Of a stretch of 5,439 nucleotides of DNA, positions 1-3,763 are shown piece by piece (position 1 is the stretch's first letter; each line of letters begins with the position of its first letter). The notes below the pieces were generated by a model. The model did no database searches and was not told the DNA's origin. It saw nothing but the letters and a program-made list of their open reading frames with translations. The DNA comes from a bacterium (GTDB lineage Bacteria > Thermosulfidibacterota > Thermosulfidibacteria > Thermosulfidibacterales > JALWSI01). Position numbers and translations under genes: made by a program. The stretch is from the NCBI GenBank assembly GCA_027080315.1, contig JALWSI010000139.1, positions 1 through 5,439 of the forward strand, given 5' to 3'.

Positions 1-73
1 GTGATTTTCTCCAAATCTTCTTACGGCGTTTCCTCTAAAAAGGGTTTTAGGGGATAAGGCAAGGAGGGAACAG
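1..73 (+). other. Leader before the receptor gene; possible 3' end of an upstream gene
   Basis: No complete gene fits here. One frame stays open from the left edge to a TAA at 55-57 (18 codons), a second is open to a TAA at 36-38 (11 codons), and the third has a TGA at 2-4. Any of these could be the tail of an upstream gene, and the peptides are too short to recognise. The stretch ends in a near-perfect Shine-Dalgarno sequence, AAGGAGGG at 61-68, five bases before the ATG at 74. I saw no convincing -35/-10 pair, so the transcript probably starts further upstream. Confidence 0.4.
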
Positions 74-847
74 ATGAGTATTAGAAGCAAGATAATCCTG
101 TTGGTGGTGGTAGCTGTTCTTGTGGCTTCGGGTTTGGTGGGAGGCTTGGCGATAAAGTTCAGCCTTAAAACCTTGAGAGGGGAGATCCTGAAACGCGGTG
201 AGGCTCTCACCCTTGCCTTGGGTTCTGCCTTAAGGGAACCTTTGGTGGTTCAGGATACGGTTAAGGTGAAAGAGGTGATTGACTCTTACGGTGAGATGAA
301 GGGGGTGATCCTTGCAGCGGCCCTTTCTCCAGACGGAGATGTATTGGCGGTCTCCCCTATGGAGAGGCTTTCACCAGAGCTTAGGTACTACCTGGTAAAG
401 AATATTAACGAGGAAGAGAACCCTGAAGGTGAAGAGATTTTATACTTTAAGTTTCCCACCCCGTTGGTCTCAAAAGGCGTCTCGTACGATTCGGTGTACG
501 TGGTGCACAAGACAATTCTGGGAGGCACTGGAGGTCATGTTTATCTGGCTTTGCCCACGGCTTTTGCCACAGTGGTTAAGACCCAGCATAAACTCGGTTT
601 TTTGGTTGGGGGAGCGGGGCTTGCTATGGCTGTGCTGGTTGCCATCTTGGCAGCGGCAATAGGAGTCGGTTTAACAAGGAGAATACTCTATCTGGCTGAT
701 GTGGCAGAGAGAATGAGCTTGGGAGAGCTGGATCTGCCTGTTGAGGTTAAAGGTTCAGATGAGCTGGCGAGACTTGCCGAGGCGTTGGAGAGAATGAGGG
801 TCTCTCTGAAAGCGGCTATAGAGAGACTTAAAAAGCGTACCATGTGA
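74..847 (+). CDS. Membrane sensor protein: single Cache-like periplasmic domain plus HAMP, no output domain
   Basis: This is a 257-residue inner-membrane protein with receptor architecture. Residues 1-6 are short and basic, and residues 7-28 form a first hydrophobic helix. Residues 29-173 form an extracytoplasmic domain of about 145 residues, resembling a single Cache (PAS-like) sensor: a helix with LALGSALREPLV, then a segment ending in SPDGDVLAVS and a late strand GGHVYLALP. Residues 174-200 are a second membrane helix. Residues 201-250 are a HAMP linker, with the typical GSDELARLAEALERM pattern at 227-241 starting its second helix. The protein stops about seven residues after HAMP. There is no methyl-accepting, histidine kinase, GGDEF or phosphatase domain, and the 26 bp to the next gene leave no room for a lost one. 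The start is firm: the strong Shine-Dalgarno at 61-68 is well spaced and no other start codon lies upstream in frame. Its neighbours suggest it passes a signal to the GTPase encoded next. Domain calls are by eye; the ligand is unknown. Confidence 0.85.
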   Translation: MSIRSKIILLVVVAVLVASGLVGGLAIKFSLKTLRGEILKRGEALTLALGSALREPLVVQDTVKVKEVIDSYGEMKGVILAAALSPDGDVLAVSPMERLSPELRYYLVKNINEEENPEGEEILYFKFPTPLVSKGVSYDSVYVVHKTILGGTGGHVYLALPTAFATVVKTQHKLGFLVGGAGLAMAVLVAILAAAIGVGLTRRILYLADVAERMSLGELDLPVEVKGSDELARLAEALERMRVSLKAAIERLKKRTM

Positions 848-873
848 GGCAGAAGAAGGATTGCTTATAGATC

Positions 874-1494
874 ATGTTGGTCAACTTAGCCAGCAAAGAG
901 GTCACCTTCAAGATAGTCTATTACGGACCGGGGTTGTGTGGGAAGACCACCAACCTTCTGCAGGTGCACTCAAAGCTGAAAAACAGTGAAAGAAGCGAAC
1001 TGGTTAGCCTGGCCAACAGGGAGGATAGAACCATATTTTTTGATTTTGCCTCGGTGGATCTGGGCACCCTTTCAGGGTTGAAGGTGAAGTTCAGCCTTTA
1101 TACGGTGCCAGGACAGTCTATCTACAAGGTTACCAGAAAACTGGTGTTGAAAGGCGTAGATGGCCTTGTCTTTGTGGCAGACTCTTCGCCTGATAGAATG
1201 AAGGCCAACATGCTCTCTTTTCAAGAGATGGTGGCTCATTTGAGAAAGATAGGGCTCTCTTTAAAGGAGGTTCCTATGGTGATTCAATACAACAAGAGGG
1301 ACTTGCCAAATGCTCTTCCTCTGAAGGTTCTGGAGAGGTTCAATGTGAGAAGGGCTCCTGCCATTGAGGCAGTGGCTGTAGAGGGTACAGGTGTTATGGA
1401 GACTCTCAATACCATCGCAAAGCTTGTTCTCTCAAAGCACGCTTCTGTTCTGAAGGGTGTGGGGAAGAGAAAAGCGGCAGCTGGGGGTGTGTAA
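874..1494 (+). CDS. MglA-family small Ras-like GTPase
   Basis: This 206-residue cytoplasmic GTPase matches the Myxococcus MglA family closely. The P-loop GPGLCGKTT is at 18-26. Switch I is EDRTIFFDF at 50-58, with the candidate catalytic arginine R52 and Mg-binding T53. G3 is TVPGQ at 77-81, with the family's Thr in place of the usual Ras Asp and with catalytic Q81. RKLVLKGVDGLVFVADS lies at 88-104, the base-specificity motif NKRD at 140-143, and the G5 region near EAVAVEGTGV at 165-174. Numbering runs one behind M. xanthus MglA. In known systems MglA sets cell polarity and motility and is switched off by the roadblock protein MglB. No roadblock gene is in this window. The tail (about 188-206) is longer and more basic than in M. 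xanthus MglA. Within switch II, QSIYKVTRKL differs from the M. xanthus QVFYDASRKL. The start is fixed by an in-frame TAG at 868-870. The AAGGA at 856-860 is 13 bases away, which is long. The stop shares one base with the next start (TAATG), suggesting translational coupling. Confidence 0.95.
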   Translation: MLVNLASKEVTFKIVYYGPGLCGKTTNLLQVHSKLKNSERSELVSLANREDRTIFFDFASVDLGTLSGLKVKFSLYTVPGQSIYKVTRKLVLKGVDGLVFVADSSPDRMKANMLSFQEMVAHLRKIGLSLKEVPMVIQYNKRDLPNALPLKVLERFNVRRAPAIEAVAVEGTGVMETLNTIAKLVLSKHASVLKGVGKRKAAAGGV

Positions 1495-2624
1495 TGAAAA
1501 GGCTGGTTATGGTGATTTTTGTGCTTTCTTTCATAGCCTGTGGGGTGAGTGTGGCTTGGTCCGAAGGGGTGGTGAAGATAGGAACCACCATGGGGCTTTC
1601 GGGTTATTACAGCGGTGTAGCTAATAATTTTCTTAAAGGCTACACACTGGCCTTTGAAGAGATAAACAGCCAAGGGGGAGTGAAGGGAAGGCGGTTAGAG
1701 CAGATTGTGTATGATGATGGATACGATCCAGCCCGTACCATAAAGGGGCTTAACAAGCTGGTGTACGAGGATAAGGTTCCTCTTTTATTTGCCGTCTTTG
1801 GGACGCCCCCCAACGCGGTGGCCTCTTTGAGACTGAAGGTTTTTAAGATTCCCCTCTTCTTCCCCTGTTCGGGAGGAGGCTTTCTCTATTCTAACCAGCC
1901 TTACGTATTCACCTTTCAGGCCTCTTACATGTCTGAAAGTAGGGCTATGATAGAGCAGGCTGTGAAAGATGGCTACAAAAGGATAGGAGTTGTTTACCTC
2001 ACCAACACCTACGGATGGGACTGTAAAATAGCCTCGTTGAAAGAGGCAAGAAAACAGAATGTGGAGGCCTTTCCTATACCTTTAAAAAAGAGCGAAGATA
2101 TACCTCTTGTGGTGAAGGAGCTGTTGGATAAGAAGGCAGATGCCGTCTATCTTGCTGTTCCCAACAAGTTCCTAGTGCCCTTGCTAAGATTCATGGATGC
2201 TAAAGGATACCATCCTGGCCTCTATGCTGAGTGCTACTGCAGGTTGGCCGATGCTCTTCAGGCCATAGGAGACGATGTGGCTTCCCGATTCCCCACAGCA
2301 GTGGCGGGACGCTTTCTCCCTCAGCTGAGCGAAAATTATCGTTGTGTGACCTGGTACAAAAAGGCCTTAGAGATGTTCTCGCCTGAGGAGCCTCCCAATC
2401 CTGTGGCCTTTCAAGGATACCTTATGGCCAGAACTCTTGGTGAGATACTAAAGCAGGCGCCTTCTTTGGACCCTAAAGGGATCATAAAGGGGGCTGAATC
2501 GGTGAAAGGCTTAGACGTTGGTTTGCCTGAAAAGATATCATATTCTCCCACAGATCATGTGGGACTTACAAGGGTTTTTCTTTACAGGGTTAAGCATGGT
2601 GAGTTGGTCCCACTGGTCAGGTGA
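1494..2624 (+). CDS. Periplasmic solute-binding protein, LivJ/Peripla_BP_6 type (first of two paralogs)
   Basis: This 376-residue secreted protein has the type I periplasmic-binding fold used for branched-chain amino acids, amides and many small carboxylates. Residues 1-23 are a signal peptide: MKR, a hydrophobic core, and a probable cut after AWS at 23. FIAC at 13-16 is only a weak lipobox, so a lipoprotein is possible but less likely. The mature protein opens with KIGTTMGLSGYY (28-39), typical of the first strand and ligand loop. It continues with EINSQGGVKGR (56-66), VYDDGY (72-77), FGTPPN (102-107), PCSGGGFLYS (124-133), YGWDC (173-177) and GYHPGLYAE (238-246). It is about half identical by eye to the next gene's product, and 322-364 is nearly identical. 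The start overlaps the GTPase stop by one base, and no good Shine-Dalgarno is visible, so coupling is likely. No LivH/M permease or LivF/G ATPase gene is nearby, so it may serve a sensor rather than a transporter. The ligand cannot be told from sequence. Confidence 0.92.
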   Translation: MKRLVMVIFVLSFIACGVSVAWSEGVVKIGTTMGLSGYYSGVANNFLKGYTLAFEEINSQGGVKGRRLEQIVYDDGYDPARTIKGLNKLVYEDKVPLLFAVFGTPPNAVASLRLKVFKIPLFFPCSGGGFLYSNQPYVFTFQASYMSESRAMIEQAVKDGYKRIGVVYLTNTYGWDCKIASLKEARKQNVEAFPIPLKKSEDIPLVVKELLDKKADAVYLAVPNKFLVPLLRFMDAKGYHPGLYAECYCRLADALQAIGDDVASRFPTAVAGRFLPQLSENYRCVTWYKKALEMFSPEEPPNPVAFQGYLMARTLGEILKQAPSLDPKGIIKGAESVKGLDVGLPEKISYSPTDHVGLTRVFLYRVKHGELVPLVR

Positions 2625-2626
2625 GC

Positions 2627-2631
2627 AGGTG
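2627..2631 (+). promoter_or_regulatory. Likely ribosome binding site for the second binding protein
   Basis: AGGTG matches the 3' half of the consensus AGGAGGTG. It lies 4 bases before the ATG at 2636 and 7 before the ATG at 2639, just after the stop of the upstream gene at 2622-2624. It supports these starts over the GTG at 2621 and the later ATGs at 2648 and 2660. The evidence is moderate because the motif is only five bases long. Confidence 0.45.
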
Positions 2632-2635
2632 TGAT

Positions 2636-3763
2636 ATGATGATTCATATGAGGGGAGTTATGAATAGAACAGTGGGATGTTTGATGATCCTCTTCCTTAT
2701 TTCTTTTTGGGGGATGGCTCAAGGGGGAGAGGTTATAAAGATAGGCACCTCTATGGACCTCTCAGGCTACTACGGGGAGGTTGGTAAGAAGCTGCTTGAG
2801 GGGTACAACTTGGCCTTTAAGGAGATAAACGCTTCTGGTGGGATCAAAGGTAGAGAGATAGAGCACGTGGTCTATGACGATGGTTACAATGTGGGCAGGG
2901 CCATGGAGAATGTGAGTAAGCTATGTTTGAAAGATAAGGTTTCTCTTCTCTTTGCGGTTTTTGGAACCCCGCCCAATGTGAGCTTGATGTCCAGATTGTC
3001 TGTGCTTAAAGTGCCGCACTTTTTCCCCATATCGGGAGGCTCTTTTCTTTACTCTGAAGTGAATCCTTACCTCTTCACCTTTCTCCCCTCATACAAGAAG
3101 GAGAGCCAATCTCTTGTTGATCTTGCCTATAAAGAGGGACACAAGGGATTGGGCGTTCTCTATCTTCCCAACGCCTACGGATGGGACTGTAAGATCGCCG
3201 CCAAGAGGGAGGCCAAAAGGCTGGGCATGGGTGTGGTCACCTACCGCCTTAAATCGGAAAGGGATGTGAGTTCCTTGGCTAAAAGGCTTGCCTCTCAGAA
3301 GATAGAGGCGCTTTACTTAGTGATACCCTATAAGTTTCTCTTGCCTTTGCTTAAGGCCATGGATGCAGAGGGATACCATCCTGCCCTATATGCGGAGTTC
3401 TATTGCAGGTTGCCTCAAGCCATGGCAGAGCTTAAAGAAAGGGCTAAGCTCTTTAGAGAGGCTGCCTGGGGCAGATTCATTCCCATGTTGGGTGAGGATT
3501 ATCCCGCCATTGGATGGTACAGAGATGCTCTTCAGAGGTTTGCCCCTGATCAGTCTCCGGATCCCACGGTGTTTATGGGTTATATTATGGGAAGGACCCT
3601 GGGAGAGGTATTAAAGAGAGCGCCCTCTTTAGATCCCAAGGGCATCATAAAGGGGGCAGAGTCTGTGAAGGATCTGGACGTGGGGCTCTCTGAGAAGATC
3701 TCATACTCCCCAACCGACCATGTGGGCTTGAGCAGGGTCTTTCTCTACCACCTGAGCCCTTGA
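2636..3763 (+). CDS. Periplasmic solute-binding protein, LivJ/Peripla_BP_6 type (second paralog)
   Basis: This is a tandem paralog of the preceding binding protein, with 375 residues from this start. A signal peptide ends near GMA at 26-28. The mature part repeats the family landmarks: KIGTSMDLSGYY (35-46), EINASGGIKGR (63-73), VYDDGY (79-84), FGTPPN (109-114), PISGGSFLYS (131-140), YGWDC (181-185) and GYHPALYAE (246-254). The C-terminal stretch 329-371 matches the paralog at 40 of 43 positions. Start choice is uncertain. A GTG at 2621 overlaps the previous stop; ATGs lie at 2636, 2639, 2648 and 2660. I chose 2636 because AGGTG at 2627-2631 sits just upstream. The ATG at 2660 gives a signal peptide of the same length as the paralog's, but its GGAG lies only two bases away. 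The gene is clearly in one operon with the GTPase and first binding protein. Two cysteines, C185 and C257, are shared with the paralog. Different ligand-loop residues (for example GTSMD versus GTTMG) suggest the two proteins do not bind exactly the same compound. Confidence 0.9.
   Translation: MMIHMRGVMNRTVGCLMILFLISFWGMAQGGEVIKIGTSMDLSGYYGEVGKKLLEGYNLAFKEINASGGIKGREIEHVVYDDGYNVGRAMENVSKLCLKDKVSLLFAVFGTPPNVSLMSRLSVLKVPHFFPISGGSFLYSEVNPYLFTFLPSYKKESQSLVDLAYKEGHKGLGVLYLPNAYGWDCKIAAKREAKRLGMGVVTYRLKSERDVSSLAKRLASQKIEALYLVIPYKFLLPLLKAMDAEGYHPALYAEFYCRLPQAMAELKERAKLFREAAWGRFIPMLGEDYPAIGWYRDALQRFAPDQSPDPTVFMGYIMGRTLGEVLKRAPSLDPKGIIKGAESVKDLDVGLSEKISYSPTDHVGLSRVFLYHLSP

Follow-up and report, generated by a model that had tools for sequence, protein, structure and literature searches.

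A candidate receptor-to-GTPase signaling unit: a Cache-HAMP receptor without output domain encoded with MglA and two LivJ-type binding proteins

The window analyzed here, the whole 5,439-base stretch of contig JALWSI010000139.1 from a member of the Thermosulfidibacterota, is a complete contig (C139) of genome G000, a fragmented metagenome-assembled genome of 1.84 Mb in 253 contigs (94% complete). It carries four open reading frames (ORFs) on the plus strand, at positions 74-847 (257 amino acids, aa), 874-1494 (206 aa), 1494-2624 (376 aa) and 2621-3763 (380 aa). Pfam assigned HAMP to gene 1, an Arf/Ras-like GTPase to gene 2, and Peripla_BP_6 to genes 3 and 4. A preliminary description of this DNA had listed four genes on one strand with a 26 bp gap between genes 1 and 2 and a one-base overlap between genes 2 and 3, which the ORF coordinates bear out. 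It also placed genes 3 and 4 in near-contact. The ORFs indeed touch (2621 versus 2624), but the start of gene 4 is probably the ATG at 2660 behind AGGGGAG (2651-2657) and not the GTG at 2621, which would leave a 35 bp gap. Since the contig begins 73 bases ahead of gene 1, genes further upstream could be read in related genomes only. The features of the operon are as follows.

62-68, plus strand: Shine-Dalgarno-like AGGAGGG ahead of the receptor gene (sequence reading)
74-847, plus strand: transmembrane Cache-HAMP receptor without output domain, 257 aa (Pfam, fold, kept in genomes G007, G006 and G002)
161-568, plus strand: predicted periplasmic Cache (PAS-like) sensor domain, residues ~30-165 (structure model, structure alignment)
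671-844, plus strand: HAMP (671-811) and conserved C-terminal tail ending ...LERMRVSLKAAIERLKKRTM (Pfam, tail alignment)
874-1494, plus strand: MglA, Group 1 Ras-like GTPase, 206 aa (solved relatives, motifs)
1494-2624, plus strand: LivJ-type periplasmic binding protein A (Peripla_BP_6) with signal peptide-like N-terminus (Pfam, tree)
2660-3763, plus strand: LivJ-type periplasmic binding protein B, tandem paralogue of A (ORF from 2621; likely start 2660)

In the product of gene 1, HAMP (PF00672, 44 bits, residues 200-246) is the sole Pfam domain, and a Cache domain was not detected by Pfam. The AlphaFold2 (AF2) model has a mean pLDDT (predicted local distance difference test) of 71, with block means in the sensor mostly between 67 and 88 and a weak spot at residues 115-119. 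Its secondary-structure elements follow the Cache order, and alignment of the sensor by VIA-align yielded Z 12.8 with WalK (3.2 A over 137 residues) and Z 11.8 with CitA, so that the predicted fold supports a Cache domain. The protein stops with the HAMP tail: Pfam revealed neither an MCPsignal domain, with 0 residues left beyond the tail, nor a HisKA/HATPase kinase domain. The Cache-HAMP receptor without output named in the preliminary description is thereby recovered, with HAMP taken from Pfam and Cache from the predicted fold. The tail signature is found again in 14 aligned receptors, which end 0-5 residues past it and have LAExLExMRxS(L/M)xxA in common. Truncation by a frameshift or an assembly error was rejected, because 15 receptors stop at the same point and gene 1 ends before the MglA gene begins. 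The sensor half is homologous to MglA-linked receptors of other lineages (hhalign 97%, E 4.8e-11) and weakly related to chemoreceptors adjoining related binding proteins (hhalign 87%, E 3.7e-6), both matches partly spanning the first transmembrane helix.

The best solved relatives of the gene 2 product are MglA of Thermus and Myxococcus (E 1e-62 to 1e-59). Its P-loop GPGLCGKT and its G4 motif NKRD fit GxxxxGK[ST] and [NT]KxD. An arginine stands beside the G2 threonine (RTIFFDF), and G3 reads TVPGQ; these two traits are given as marks of Group 1 MglA by Wuichet and Sogaard-Andersen (PMC4316618). Because both are present, gene 2 is assigned to Group 1 MglA by its sequence.

For the arrangement in relatives, nine genomes of the phylum were compared. 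Two of them, G007 and G006, belong to other families of the same taxonomic order. On contig C99 of G007, the genes follow each other as D1 (DUF4388), D2 (weak DUF4388 match), a 93 aa ORF, DUF4388, Roadblock, HAMP receptor, binding protein, MglA, and binding protein. The order in G006 is D2, Roadblock, receptor, MglA, and binding protein, the last running on into contig C243 by an exact 127-base contig overlap. G002 has D2, Roadblock, receptor and binding protein without MglA; its contigs C24 and C115 overlap by about 145 bases with one mismatch and were treated as one operon. In all three, Roadblock directly precedes the receptor, as had been anticipated for an MglB gene, spacings from Roadblock on are below 20 bp, and no transporter gene adjoins the operon. 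Upstream of the operon, relatives therefore offer an MglB-like Roadblock gene, the cluster neighbor of MglA in G007 and G006, and genes of the PATAN/DUF4388 type, DUF4388 being what we take to be the PATAN domain. Receptor, Roadblock and DUF4388 co-occur in the same four of the nine genomes and are missing from the other five, two of which are only 71-73% complete. For independent genomes, such a distribution (4/4 versus 0/5) would have one chance in 126 per trait pair, but these genomes are not independent. Strong MglA matches were obtained in three of the four receptor-bearing genomes and in 0/5 others, and a binding protein directly adjoins the receptor or MglA in every receptor-bearing genome of the phylum. 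Downstream of position 3763, the window contains a 4HBT thioesterase-like gene and a methyltransferase gene, neither of which was seen adjoining the operon in relatives; a search of the window for RNA elements gave zero Rfam matches.

When named genomes were scanned with the receptor profile, tail-ended receptors turned up in Acidobacteria, Nitrospirae, Deinococcales, an Aminicenantes bacterium, Thiomargarita, and one further bacterium. These receptors stop 0-5 residues past the HAMP tail, whereas other HAMP matches run on for hundreds of residues. In Nitrospirae (L099, L102) the order is D1-D2-(small ORF)-DUF4388-receptor-Roadblock-MglA, with gaps of 9 and 15 bp between the last three genes. 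Among 386 sampled genomes, such receptors lie near Roadblock and MglA in eight from beyond the phylum, which represent five lineages (L146; L148; L150/L151; L152/L153; L154/L155); the distance is 1.1 kb in L154 and L155. With the two Nitrospirae, at least seven other lineages possess receptor, Roadblock and MglA; the receptor-GTPase unit is therefore widespread, in the sense of recurrence and not of frequency, the loci having been chosen as top profile matches. In the Acidobacteria loci the receptor lies behind DUF4388 and MglA is not adjacent. Domains of the sCache_3 type are present in the single receptor tested from there, and dCache_1 in one Nitrospirae receptor. Swapped sensors combined with a constant HAMP tail and Roadblock/MglA neighbors would fit a receptor family sharing a non-covalent output.

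Two side observations concern these clusters. A gene for a large protein lies directly ahead of an output-less HAMP receptor in three loci (L144:5115-8017, L145:5476-8252, L105:6926-10174). It is a Ser/Thr kinase in both cases tested, L144 and L105, with REC clear in L105 and weak in L144, and the receptor class may thus have a second type of partner. Between D2 and DUF4388, a protein of 125-167 aa is regularly encoded in Acidobacteria and Nitrospirae clusters (L096:7528-8013, L099:3349-3723); it has no Pfam match and resembles Roadblock in size alone.

The binding proteins A and B are 56% identical and match Peripla_BP_6 (PF13458) with 145 and 142 bits, respectively. For protein B, the AF2 model has a pLDDT of 83, and the closest solved fold is 4kv7, a presumed Leu/Ile/Val-binding protein. 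A branched-chain amino acid should not be taken for granted as the ligand. In the phylogeny, the operon binding proteins form one clade (97/96), sister to the C-terminal binding-protein domain of proteins of ~1000 aa with GAF-HD-GGDEF make-up in G003, G005 and G008, the outer placement of the clade being less firm owing to long branches. The binding proteins of the Liv loci in the window's own genome branch apart (96/97), as do all transporter-linked ones tested. Other contigs of this genome encode complete Liv transporters next to binding proteins of their own. As already described, the window contains no LivH/M permease (PF02653) or ATP-binding cassette (ABC) ATPase; none adjoins the operon in relatives either, where the surroundings could be read beyond the flanks of the window. 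Membership in a Liv transporter operon was rejected from gene context and phylogeny. As expected for partners of a receptor, the two proteins are encoded with a membrane receptor and separated from the binding proteins of transporters.

The 25 nearest relatives of the binding proteins beyond the phylum (L197-L221) were inspected with their neighbors within 1.5 kb flanks; several are from the same genus, so that independent cases are fewer. Ten of the 25 adjoin a HAMP or Cache membrane protein. Three of these are HAMP-MCP chemoreceptors (L200, L201, L208), one is a HAMP-HisKA sensor (L214), five are HAMP sensors read in part (L216, L218-L221), one of which weakly matches the TorS sensor domain, and one is a weakly Cache-like membrane protein (L199). 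Three further relatives, from genomes outside the phylum, are the C-terminal Peripla_BP_6 part of Ser/Thr kinases (L203:1483-4038, L209:1450-3825, L211:130-2598), and a single one adjoins Liv ATPases (L207).

Several other features of these proteins were observed. The final ~60 codons of A and B (2390-2620 versus 3530-3760) specify 83-87% identical protein, compared with 23-67% in the remainder, a pattern suggestive of gene conversion or of a constrained C-terminal surface shared by both. A 125 aa remnant with 63% identity to B (L181:9266-9643, G007 contig C31) is seemingly a degenerate extra copy. The ~1000 aa GAF-HD-GGDEF proteins with C-terminal LivJ-type domain (L182:1154-4162 in G008, L183:4614-7661 in G003, L184:920-4015 in G005; domains from a Pfam run on the G008 protein) lack an evident transmembrane segment, a hint at solute sensing in the cytoplasm by a cyclic di-GMP protein. 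In one genus, binding protein and HAMP sensor lie behind genes for a response regulator-SpoIIE phosphatase and an RsbW-like HATPase (L218:2648-4021, L220:1-1373, L221:1-1373; Pfam run on L218), a partner-switching layout.

From these analyses it appears somewhat probable, at roughly 0.55, that the operon encodes a receptor-to-GTPase signaling unit with binding-protein input and with output through Roadblock/PATAN to MglA. The two periplasmic proteins would catch a small solute and, when loaded, dock on the Cache domain of the dimeric membrane receptor. The signal would pass through the second transmembrane helix and HAMP to the short conserved C-terminal helix, which, lacking a kinase or chemotaxis domain, could act on Roadblock, an MglB-like GTPase-activating protein (GAP), and on PATAN (DUF4388) where present. 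These partners would set the GTP/GDP state or the location of MglA, and the output would probably be surface behavior such as the use of type IV pili. The analyses show which genes are present, how they are conserved and which domains they encode, that the binding proteins branch apart from transporter ones, and that receptor, Roadblock and MglA recur together. Physical contacts, direction of signaling, ligand and output are inferred. The pair of binding protein and Cache-HAMP receptor occurs elsewhere with chemotaxis and kinase outputs, and the unit of tail, Roadblock and MglA occurs elsewhere with other Cache inputs; in the phylum of the window, both are combined. A wider and more tentative proposal is that output-less Cache-HAMP proteins with a LERMRxSLKxAIERL tail might constitute a general receptor class acting directly, without phosphorylation, on Roadblock/PATAN/MglA in several phyla, the branch of the window having adopted binding proteins as input; in its logic, this would be a bacterial parallel to reception coupled to G proteins.

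The interpretation in the preliminary description is partly supported. Binding proteins serving the receptor gain independent support from their separate clade and from relatives adjoining Cache/HAMP receptors, and the gene set is more than a chance assembly, as it remains linked in G007 and G006 and, without MglA, in G002. Neither Liv genes beside the operon nor its dispersal throughout the related genomes was encountered. The idea that the HAMP segment changes the state of the GTPase needs correction, MglA being probably reached through Roadblock/PATAN and not by HAMP alone, and nutrient sensing is a putative role. The preliminary description named no known system of exactly this composition. 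The receptor-GTPase unit itself is shared with several phyla; the addition of binding proteins was seen in this phylum only.

A number of results weigh against a signaling unit of this kind. In the window's genome the Roadblock gene is alone on contig C159 after rtcB, the single DUF4388 gene is unlinked on C145, and D2 was not found; the unit is therefore scattered or reduced there. That the Roadblock contig continues the window upstream was rejected, the gene being situated between rtcB and a gene on the opposite strand. G002 combines receptor and binding protein but has no Group 1 MglA, and linkage of binding proteins to the GTPase unit was seen in this small phylum alone. MglA is known to control polarity and type IV pili. 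Every one of the nine genomes of the phylum has PilT, including the five without the unit, so pili are no specific correlate, and co-occurrence does not support them as the specific output. With PilT in 9/9 genomes, and with PilM, Roadblock, DUF4388 and a second small GTPase of another kind forming a block convergent to the G006 operon (contig C243, L180:10125-12782), pili are a plausible output, though not a specific one. A GTPase similar to this second one is encoded near the G002 operon (L047:3725-4264).

The Cache domain could also bind a small ligand of its own and still control Roadblock/MglA, the binding proteins being co-expressed for scavenging or for another receptor. In other phyla, no binding protein neighbors the related receptors beside Roadblock/MglA, so the unit can function without one, and the predicted sensor fold resembles ligand-binding Cache domains such as that of CitA. 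The constant proximity of a binding protein to receptor or MglA in receptor-bearing genomes of the phylum, and the Cache/HAMP receptors with other outputs beside relatives of these proteins, make this explanation unlikely. If, instead, the HAMP protein were a membrane anchor or polar landmark for MglA/Roadblock and transduced no signal, its lack of a catalytic output would be accounted for, and MglA systems do act by localization, as in Myxococcus (PMC2907295). However, a sensor domain that is kept and, in other phyla, replaced by other Cache types (dCache, sCache_3) suits sensing, and an anchor leaves the adjoining binding proteins unexplained, which renders this role improbable. Finally, the binding proteins might feed a Liv-type ABC transporter encoded elsewhere and stand beside receptor and GTPase incidentally. 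Liv permeases and ATPases are present in the genome, binding proteins can serve distant transporters, and L207 is a close outside relative next to Liv ATPases. Yet the transporters of the genome have their own adjacent binding proteins on a separate branch, and in different families of the order the operon's binding proteins remain linked to receptor and MglA, so that incidental placement appears quite improbable.

What is known of Ras-like GTPases in bacteria comes mainly from motility polarity and from conservons, where chemosensory or histidine kinase proteins supply the known inputs. Should the signaling unit proposed here exist, it would provide a kinase-free route from an outside signal to a GTPase, through a receptor encoded with the GTPase and a GAP-like partner. 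It would also offer a concrete, testable set of partners for PATAN/DUF4388 domains and point to a class of binding proteins that annotation labels as transporter parts. A literature search, with most subscription journals outside its coverage, returned no paper in which an output-less HAMP receptor belongs to an MglA/Roadblock neighborhood or binding proteins are added to it.

Among known systems, several share parts of this arrangement. A Liv ABC operon has LivJ-type binding proteins (Peripla_BP_6) as well, but here permease and ATPase are absent and the proteins form a separate branch. Binding proteins drive receptors in LuxP-LuxQ, TorT-TorS, and AibA/AibB with the sCache receptor TlpB (PMC6321045), acting through the ligand-binding domain, in TlpB with two binding proteins on one receptor. 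There, the receptor chain closes with histidine kinase or chemotaxis domains, whereas here it stops behind HAMP and the link is to a GTPase. MglA-MglB of Myxococcus and Thermus are alike in Group 1 MglA with intrinsic arginine, TVPGQ, and, in the relatives G007 and G006, a Roadblock partner, but the input in Myxococcus is the Frz chemosensory system with RomR, in contrast to a Cache-HAMP receptor encoded alongside. PATAN genes near Group 1 and Group 5 MglA were noted earlier (Wuichet and Sogaard-Andersen 2014, PMC4316618; Makarova et al. 2006 as cited there); these neighborhoods likewise have Group 1 MglA and Roadblock beside PATAN (DUF4388) genes, and in the accessible part of that source output-less HAMP receptors or binding proteins are not mentioned as neighbors. 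Actinobacterial conservons (CvnA-CvnD) comprise a histidine kinase, CvnA, and a GTPase of Group 2, CvnD. In the present operon, a HisKA/HATPase CvnA is absent, and the Group 2 trait, lack of the G2 arginine, is absent as well, arginine and TVPGQ of a Group 1 GTPase being present. A CvnB-like Roadblock is found in the operon of relatives and unlinked in the window's genome, the accessory proteins are of the PATAN/DUF4388 type, and binding proteins are added. The operon is best called a variant of MglA/Roadblock signaling, nearest in logic to the conservons, without their kinase.

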